A DNA stretch of 24,980 nt from positions 1 to 24,980 of the IMG/VR virus record IMGVR_UViG_3300029787_000304; one strand, given 5' to 3'. The notes beneath the pieces were generated by a model. The model made no database searches. It was not told where the DNA came from and worked only from the letters and a program-made list of their open reading frames with translations. Shown one piece after another: positions 22,363-23,454 of the stretch; the stretch's first letter is position 1, and every line of letters begins with the position of its first letter. This DNA is from a virus. The translations under genes were made by a program, and so were the position numbers.

Positions 22363-22470
22363 TTGAGCCAGAAAAAATATTAACAAAAACAATTGTAAAT
22401 ATAAATTTGTGGATAAATTACTATATATAATTTGTTGTGTTAATTTTTATTTTTTTAAATTCTGGCTCAA
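22363..22470. repeat. Long-spaced 11-bp inverted repeat
   Basis: TTGAGCCAGAA (22363-22373) and TTCTGGCTCAA (22460-22470) are perfect inverted copies, about 86 nt apart, in otherwise AT-rich DNA. The arms are the most GC-rich part of the spacer. They may be two operator half-sites for one protein, or ends of an RNA stem. Neither arm is next to a T-run. Confidence 0.6.
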
Positions 22471-22481
22471 AGTTTTTAAAA

Positions 22482-22530
22482 AAGGCTACTTCTTAGATTT
22501 TGAGACGTAAAATTGGAGTGAAGTAGCCTT
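22482..22530 (-). terminator. Terminator-like hairpin after the 213-aa gene
   Basis: AAGGCTACTTC (22482-22492) and GAAGTAGCCTT (22520-22530) form a perfect 11-bp stem around a 27-nt loop. Read on the minus strand, the stem is followed directly by a T-run (CCTTTTTT), as expected for a Rho-independent terminator of the gene at 22559-23200. The large loop is unusual; it may fold internally. Confidence 0.6.
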
Positions 22531-22558
22531 AGAGAATAATTATTATGAATAACAATCC

Positions 22559-23200
22559 TTAAAAGTTATAGTCGTAAAACTTATGAGGTTCAAATGATAA
22601 AACAAATCTGTTGTTATATTTATCATACCAGTATCCATCTTTTCTTCTACGGATTCTTTTTCTTGCACCATTAGGATTAGATTCTATAAACCATTCTTGG
22701 TCTCTTTGATTAACACAATGACCAGCAAATCCTCCAGCTACCCATTTAAGTTTAACAGAATCATCTTTAGTAGCAGTCATCTCTTTAACTTCAATAGTCT
22801 TCTCACTAACTATCATAGTAACCTCCCAAGGGTTAACATCAGTCCAACCCATATGGTTAGCATACTTATAATGAACAGGAGACTTTCTATGCTCTAAAGT
22901 TTTCTTAAAAAATTTTACTAAATCAGATAAGTCCCACCAATCACTAATAAAAACATCCATAGGTTCTTCACCATATTTCTCTACATGGTCTACTATCTTT
23001 CTAGAGTGAACATAAACTTTTCTCTCATCATCATTATAAAACCTACAACGACCTTCTTGTATATGTTTTTTAATTTCGTGAAAATCTATAGCAAAGCTTT
23101 GCCAACTTACAGTTTCATTACCAGTGTACTTTTTTCTGTACTCAGGATTCCTTCTAAAAGTTTCAATTGGTTCGCCTTTATAATTATATTGTACTATCAT
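22559..23200 (-). CDS. Phage protein of unknown function, minus side of the divergent promoters
   Basis: A 213-aa protein with an AAAGGA site before its ATG at 23200, and its own putative promoter and terminator, so it is likely a single-gene transcript. It is rich in aromatic and charged residues. Blocks are MIVQYNYKGEPIETFRRNPE, FISDWWDLSDLVKFFKKTLE, YKYANHMGWTDVNPWEVTMI and RIRRRKDGYWYDKYNNRFVL. The first block has a weak NUMOD-like look, but nothing else supports a homing endonuclease. The protein ends shortly after this basic/aromatic block. I do not recognise it. Placement opposite the early genes suggests a regulatory or host-takeover role. Confidence 0.6.
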   Translation of the reverse strand: MIVQYNYKGEPIETFRRNPEYRKKYTGNETVSWQSFAIDFHEIKKHIQEGRCRFYNDDERKVYVHSRKIVDHVEKYGEEPMDVFISDWWDLSDLVKFFKKTLEHRKSPVHYKYANHMGWTDVNPWEVTMIVSEKTIEVKEMTATKDDSVKLKWVAGGFAGHCVNQRDQEWFIESNPNGARKRIRRRKDGYWYDKYNNRFVLSFEPHKFYDYNF

Positions 23201-23228
23201 AATTTATTCCTTTCTCAGTTATAACTAT

Positions 23229-23257
23229 GTTATACGCCATCTGCACAAATAAGTAAA
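23229..23257 (-). promoter_or_regulatory. Sigma-70-type promoter for the minus-strand gene
   Basis: On the minus strand, TTTACT (23257-23252) and TATAAC (23234-23229) are separated by 17 nt. This matches the -35 and -10 spacing of bacterial sigma-70 promoters. Transcription would begin near 23222, leading into the 213-aa gene. Confidence 0.6.
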
Positions 23258-23264
23258 GCCTAAA

Positions 23265-23375
23265 GTTACCAAAGTATTAAAAAAGTTACCAACAGATTCT
23301 TACTCTGGTTACCCAGATATAATCCTTACTAACTAAGGCTTACAGAGATTAAGTTACCGCAGTTACCAAGTTACC
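23265..23375 (+). repeat. Six direct GTTACC repeats between divergent promoters
   Basis: GTTACC occurs on the plus strand at 23265, 23285, 23308, 23353, 23362 and 23370 (first base). Five are preceded by A; the one at 23308 is within TCTGGTTACCCAGA, which has 5-bp inverted arms. A CCTTA-CTAAC-TAAGG inverted repeat lies at 23324-23338. In about 110 nt one would expect far less than one copy of a given hexamer. The array occupies exactly the space between the two putative -35 boxes. Operator array or replication iterons are the main options. Confidence 0.7.
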
Positions 23376-23397
23376 CCAGATCCTAGGAAAAAAATAT

Positions 23398-23426
23398 TTT
23401 ACTTTAAATTATTTTCTATATATAGT
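23398..23426 (+). promoter_or_regulatory. Sigma-70-type promoter for the plus-strand genes
   Basis: TTTACT (23398-23403), a 17-nt spacer, and TATAGT (23421-23426) give the same design as the minus-strand promoter. Transcription would begin near 23432, upstream of AAAGGAA and the ATG at 23455. Confidence 0.6.
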
Positions 23427-23454
23427 ATAACAGTATTACTGAGAAAGGAATTTA

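Follow-up and report, generated by a model that had tools for sequence, protein, structure and literature searches.

A fixed-geometry GTTACC array between outward promoters as the probable iteron cluster of a phage replication origin

What does an array of six direct hexamer repeats do when it fills the gap between two promoters that point away from each other? The question is raised by a locus in an IMG/VR virus record, of which we analyse a stretch of 24,980 bases, here called the window. A first-pass annotation had read the array as one control element for the genes on both sides, bound by a dedicated protein. We use a combination of motif statistics, comparison with relatives, scans of viral and bacterial sequence and structure prediction to study the interplay between the array, its promoters and its neighbouring genes. 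By analogy with known systems, we find that the array is probably the iteron cluster of a phage replication origin of the SaPI/PICI/Sfi21 type, since its spacing matches that of a mapped phage origin and of the presumed origins of phage satellites.

The array, its promoters and its genes

The basic layout is as follows. A motif search places GTTACC on the + strand at 23265-23270 (iteron 1, offset 0), 23285-23290 (iteron 2, offset 20), 23308 (iteron 3, offset 43), 23353-23358 (iteron 4, offset 88, which opens the inner cluster), 23362-23367 (iteron 5, offset 97) and 23370-23375 (iteron 6, offset 105), so that six copies span 23265-23375. From iteron 3 to iteron 4 the distance is exactly 45 bp, as it is in relatives and in the Sfi21 origin; the iteron 3 site itself lies on the opposite strand in most relatives (GGTAAC, offset 42). 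Both strands of the whole window hold 14 GTTACC against 9.5 expected, with clustering confined to 23265-23375. When the window is shuffled 300 times with dinucleotides preserved, the densest same-strand cluster of any hexamer within 111 bp reaches 3-5 copies compared with six in the real sequence, and for the local AT-rich segment, shuffled 5000 times, the maximum is 4. The repeats are thus a real element, as the first-pass annotation had supposed.

The promoters are equally easy to locate. The pattern TTTACT-17-TATARY occurs exactly twice in the window, at 23229-23257 on the minus strand (TTTACT-17-TATAAC, before the minus-strand gene) and at 23398-23426 on the + strand (TTTACT-17-TATAGT, before the replication operon), and both promoter-like sites face outward, at gaps of 7 nt (23258-23264) and 22 nt (23376-23397) from the array. 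These positions confirm the matched pair around six repeats that had been described. By chance 0.09 such patterns are expected, and two are reached in 2 of 100 shuffles. A general sigma-70 scan accepts the + promoter only, at 9/12, and in a 5-kb region it returns 22 such matches against 15 expected, no clear excess; by themselves, therefore, the promoters are weak evidence. Within the clade the minus promoter is preserved: L113 and L115 have TTTACT-17-TATAAT or TATGAT around a spacer that has diverged. The + promoter keeps its TATA box in relatives and loses its -35 box. Past the inner iterons lies an AT-rich stretch (23386-23430) that overlaps the + promoter and is a candidate unwinding element; other carriers of the array have AT-rich DNA in the same place.

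Iteron 3 sits within a short palindrome, TCTGG-TTAC-CCAGA (23304-23317), which could in principle point to a structure in RNA, with the array acting as a leader or attenuator. We give this very little credence, because the array lies upstream of the transcripts from both predicted promoters, has no Rfam match, and in relatives beyond the near clade lacks the palindrome.

To the right of the array, the + strand carries a Pam3 gp32-like gene (PF23992; 23455-23829), the first of the replication operon, then a gp33-like gene (PF23984; 23822-24415) and a gp34-like gene (PF23977; 24418-24978) that runs past the end of the window. In a near-identical record of 51,883 bp (G001), whose gp32-like protein is identical and whose TerL is 98% identical, the gp34-like gene is followed by genes for an AEP primase, a UvrD helicase, ThyX, a 3'-5' exonuclease and Pol III alpha, and it is from this gene order that we place the array at the head of a replication operon. 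The cumulative GC skew of the same record reaches its lowest point 400 bp away from the array, which supports an origin and cannot discriminate, since the minimum falls where gene direction switches. Among named phages, Roseobacter phages CRP-901/902 come nearest in TerL, at about 71%. No such array is present in the divergent intergenic region inspected in CRP-902, and the window as a nucleotide query against named phages gives no matches.

The two divergent genes also have matched leaders, a point that the first-pass annotation does not mention: ATTCCTTTCTCAGT at 23206-23219, which on the minus strand is the leader or ribosome-binding motif ACTGAGAAAGGAAT of the minus-strand gene, and ACTGAGAAAGGAAT at 23438-23451 before the + strand operon; neither recurs elsewhere in the window at up to 2 mismatches. 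In nearly all relatives inspected TGAGAAAGGA is found before the homologous gene, sometimes in two copies; judged by this recurrence, it is a phage-wide conserved translation or leader signal that is separate from the array.

To the left, on the minus strand, are a 213-aa gene, a 196-aa gene in the TerS position, TerL and the structural genes. TerL and the gene before it are about 1-2 kb from the array, and iteron clusters can serve partition or packaging roles, so a partition (centromere-like) or packaging (pac/TerS) site deserves consideration. We regard it as quite improbable: no ParA/ParB-like gene is recognised among the genes examined, and across the lineages described below the neighbours of the array are primases and helicases, not TerS.

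Conserved spacing and changing hexamers in relatives

Now we consider how the array behaves in relatives. Near relatives keep it at 98.6-100% identity compared with 83-96% for the adjoining genes, and the minus-strand gene is sometimes replaced. In one such case (L103) the array is 98.6% identical, the adjoining coding DNA is 83-94% identical, and the minus gene does not align; in L105-L121 a different gene stands on the minus side. Relatives that are 72-75% identical in the next gene hold the sites at 0, 20, about 42 (opposite strand), 87 and 96; in individual members some of the sites have degenerated. That spacing is kept in relatives only 72% identical in the next gene supports the reading as an origin.

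In still other relatives the hexamer itself is different. It is GAAACC in L133, at distances of 23, 45 and 9, and similar layouts are built from GTTCCC (L137/L140 and L122/L127), GATGCC (L135/L141) and GTAACC (L119). Hexamer swaps at fixed spacing fit a sequence-specific protein whose preference would drift within a fixed nucleoprotein architecture. Judged from these patterns, the element very probably binds a sequence-specific protein, and to this extent the dedicated DNA-binding protein of the first-pass annotation stands. Its other suggestion was a host factor; a widely conserved one is unlikely because the hexamer changes among close relatives and the spacing stays constant. The same observation, together with an operon that encodes a replisome, supports an origin, and the swaps offer a natural system in which to find the initiator and how it reads DNA.

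The number of iteron sets also varies. The window's clade has one set, with no second mirrored set, and in a related clade, that of L105, L106, L182 and L203, a second, inverted set follows 100-108 bp further on. The more distant L144-L175, which have a gp32-like gene, carry other upstream arrays (e.g. ATGGCA/TGCCATAAA) at different spacing; no homologues of the other operon genes are detected there.

How do these data bear on the view that the array is only an operator, to which a phage repressor or activator would bind in order to switch the divergent promoters? In the window the two promoters are intact and GTTACC clusters only at the array, and the clade conserves the minus promoter, all as an operator would have it. 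We nevertheless hold it unlikely. The array is kept where the promoters and the minus gene are replaced, and the promoters are conserved with the array only inside the window's clade; in carriers outside that clade the promoters and the minus-strand gene are altered or missing. A 45-bp spacing that stays fixed through hexamer changes would not be expected of a simple operator. In unrelated elements, moreover, the genes that flank the array point the same way, the one immediately before it encoding a primase-helicase, and the geometry of the array recurs inside the annotated Sfi21 origin. The earlier description as one control element is right in that the element is real, conserved and set between outward promoters; a role that is primarily that of a promoter operator finds no support.

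The same geometry in mapped origins and unrelated elements

Streptococcus thermophilus phage Sfi21 (NC_000872, 34487-34784) has an annotated 302-bp 'origin of replication', which is described as an independent origin activated by infection (PMC6356513). Its layout is a reverse site, 45 bp, an inner pair 8 apart, an AT-rich gap and then a mirrored set, with GTTACT as the iteron. The window likewise has 45 between 23308 and 23353, spacings of 9 and 8 among 23353, 23362 and 23370, and AT-rich DNA after them. It differs from Sfi21 in the orientation of site 3, and Sfi21 differs from it in the iteron, in the mirrored second set and in a location 3' of a primase gene.

Similar reasoning applies to the satellites. 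The origins of PICI follow rep directly on its 3' side and have two iteron sets that flank an AT-rich region, and Pri-Rep-ori segments of PICI drive plasmid replication (PMC6092414). Like SaPI/PICI origins, the window has a cluster of short iterons (six GTTACC) beside AT-rich DNA, and its offsets of 20, 43, 88 and 97 compare with 20, about 40 (reverse), 86 and 94 in a Javan334-like streptococcal satellite. Unlike PICI, the window's clade has one set in place of two, and the array is 5' of the replication operon with no adjoining Rep-type helicase gene. Because these two defining features (two sets; 3' of rep) are missing, we do not class the array as a PICI origin, and infer instead, by analogy, that it works like one. 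The geometry shared with the annotated Sfi21 origin and with the streptococcal satellite supports a putative origin activity in the window's phage. Against it speak the single iteron set, the 5' position, a site 3 whose strand is flipped relative to most relatives, and the failure to see an SF3-type initiator helicase or residues that track the hexamer.

A further comparison is with the SCCmec Cch/Cch2 replicons, in which an initiator helicase binds direct repeats that adjoin its own gene (PMC7581432). DUF927-HTH_56 (Cch-like) genes adjoin several GTTACC arrays, the iteron of Cch2 differs (AAGTG, 3' of the gene), and the window's family shows no Cch-like helicase. Lambda-type and iteron-plasmid origins, too, combine direct-repeat iterons with an AT-rich unwinding region; they have another iteron length, another spacing and other initiators (O, RepA), and are likened here by description alone. 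Among the papers found for GTTACC/GGTAAC and iterons, none describes this origin in its title or abstract opening.

To see how far the geometry extends, we turn to a scan of viral contigs that required three GTTACC sites and gave 55 stretches, or 44 distinct sequences. Elements outside the family were selected by GTTACC, so the common hexamer is partly a product of selection and the evidence lies in the unselected sites, the spacing and the gene neighbourhood. An unselected opposite GGTAAC is present in the gap in 34 of the 44 distinct matches, nearly always at offset 42-45, and an unselected extra GTTACC lies next to the inner site, again in 34 of 44. Many elements add a mirrored second set across 60-110 bp of AT-rich DNA. 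The neighbouring genes are just as consistent: of the 17 lineages that can be assessed, 16 have the array directly after the 3' end of a primase-helicase or helicase gene or, in two cases, inside its 3' part, the gene types being DUF927/HTH_56, VapE, D5/DUF5906, AEP and RepA-like (AAA_25). The exception (L195) has only partial architecture, and one element that starts at the array (G027) is left out of the count. Among controls without the full architecture, a helicase neighbour is seen in 1 of 10. These unselected features and the primase-helicase neighbours, recurring in unrelated elements, argue for an origin.

The viral matches include a satellite phage of Streptococcus that shares 99% identity with Javan334 and Flavobacterium phage snusmum6-1, and S. 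thermophilus phage CHPC1282, from Sfi21's host species, has the GTTACC form. The identical three-site scan of bacterial genomes gives 22 matches, about the estimated chance number. About eight of these show most of the architecture, and seven of the eight adjoin or overlap helicase genes (in Nostoc, Clostridia, Coprococcus, Bacteroidales, Geobacteraceae, Oscillochloris and an uncultured cyanobacterium); the eighth, in Blautia, is an element also found as G026. The geometry is thus seen in a marine tailed-phage family, in Flavobacterium and S. thermophilus phages and in prophages of several phyla, and it provides a concrete signature for locating phage origins from sequence.

As a separate observation on L293, L294 (G035, 59.5 kb) and G040, one contig carries three GTTACC elements of this geometry. 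The 3' part of an AAA_25 (RepA-like) helicase ORF contains one of them, and the others are near an integrase and a Rha-like gene. Satellite P4 has ori and crr copies, of which the three-element contig is reminiscent.

A wider proposal is possible, and we put it forward tentatively. A fixed-geometry iteron half-set with a swappable hexamer (GTTACC, GAAACC, GTTCCC, GATGCC, GTAACC) may be widespread across tailed phages and satellites of several phyla, and the marine clade may be a one-sided form in which a winged-helix primase replaces the SF3-type initiator helicase, perhaps with initiation that runs in one direction and is tied to the early promoter.

Proposed initiation and candidate binders

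If the array is an origin, a phage initiator would bind the six hexamers in fixed geometry and would help to melt the adjacent AT-rich DNA, presumably at 23386-23430, where the replisome that is encoded downstream (AEP primase, UvrD helicase, Pol III alpha) could be loaded. The outward promoters of the replication operon and the minus-strand gene share the region of the array, an overlap that suggests transcriptional coupling, in which initiator binding may also affect transcription.

Which protein might read the hexamer? One candidate is the AEP primase, on the strength of a predicted C-terminal winged helix. The model of this domain (residues about 400-490) has pLDDT mostly 72-89 and the element order of a winged helix, and in a structure search the N-terminal AEP domain matches the CRISPR-associated Prim-Pol 7nqe; a match to SaPIBov1 Rep is weak (E 0.09) and we set it aside as evidence. 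The primase C-terminus has no significant homology to HTH_56 or VapE C-termini, the HTH_56 score being no higher than that of the reversed control. In the primase tree GTTACC is not restricted to one clade, no hexamer-tracking residues are found in gp32, gp33, gp34, the primase or UvrD, and a genome-wide comparison finds no hexamer-tracking gene.

The first-pass annotation had instead pointed to the 213-aa protein (PHROG 19789; minus strand, 22559-23200), for which we find no support. It is an unlikely binder, given that the array persists where another gene adjoins it (L103, L105-L121) and that its C-terminal domain is present in other phages with no such array nearby; its predicted fold (pLDDT 53) is too poor to judge by. 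This domain, the C-terminal ~100 aa, is mobile, ends in KFYDYNF, and has relatives in phages of Pseudomonas, Yersinia, Bacillus and Roseobacter. A terminator-like hairpin (AAGGCTACTTC ... GAAGTAGCCTT) occupies 22482-22532, in the intergenic region that separates the 213-aa gene from the gene before TerL, and there is another inverted repeat (GAGCCAGAA ... TTCTGGCTC) at roughly 22365-22470.
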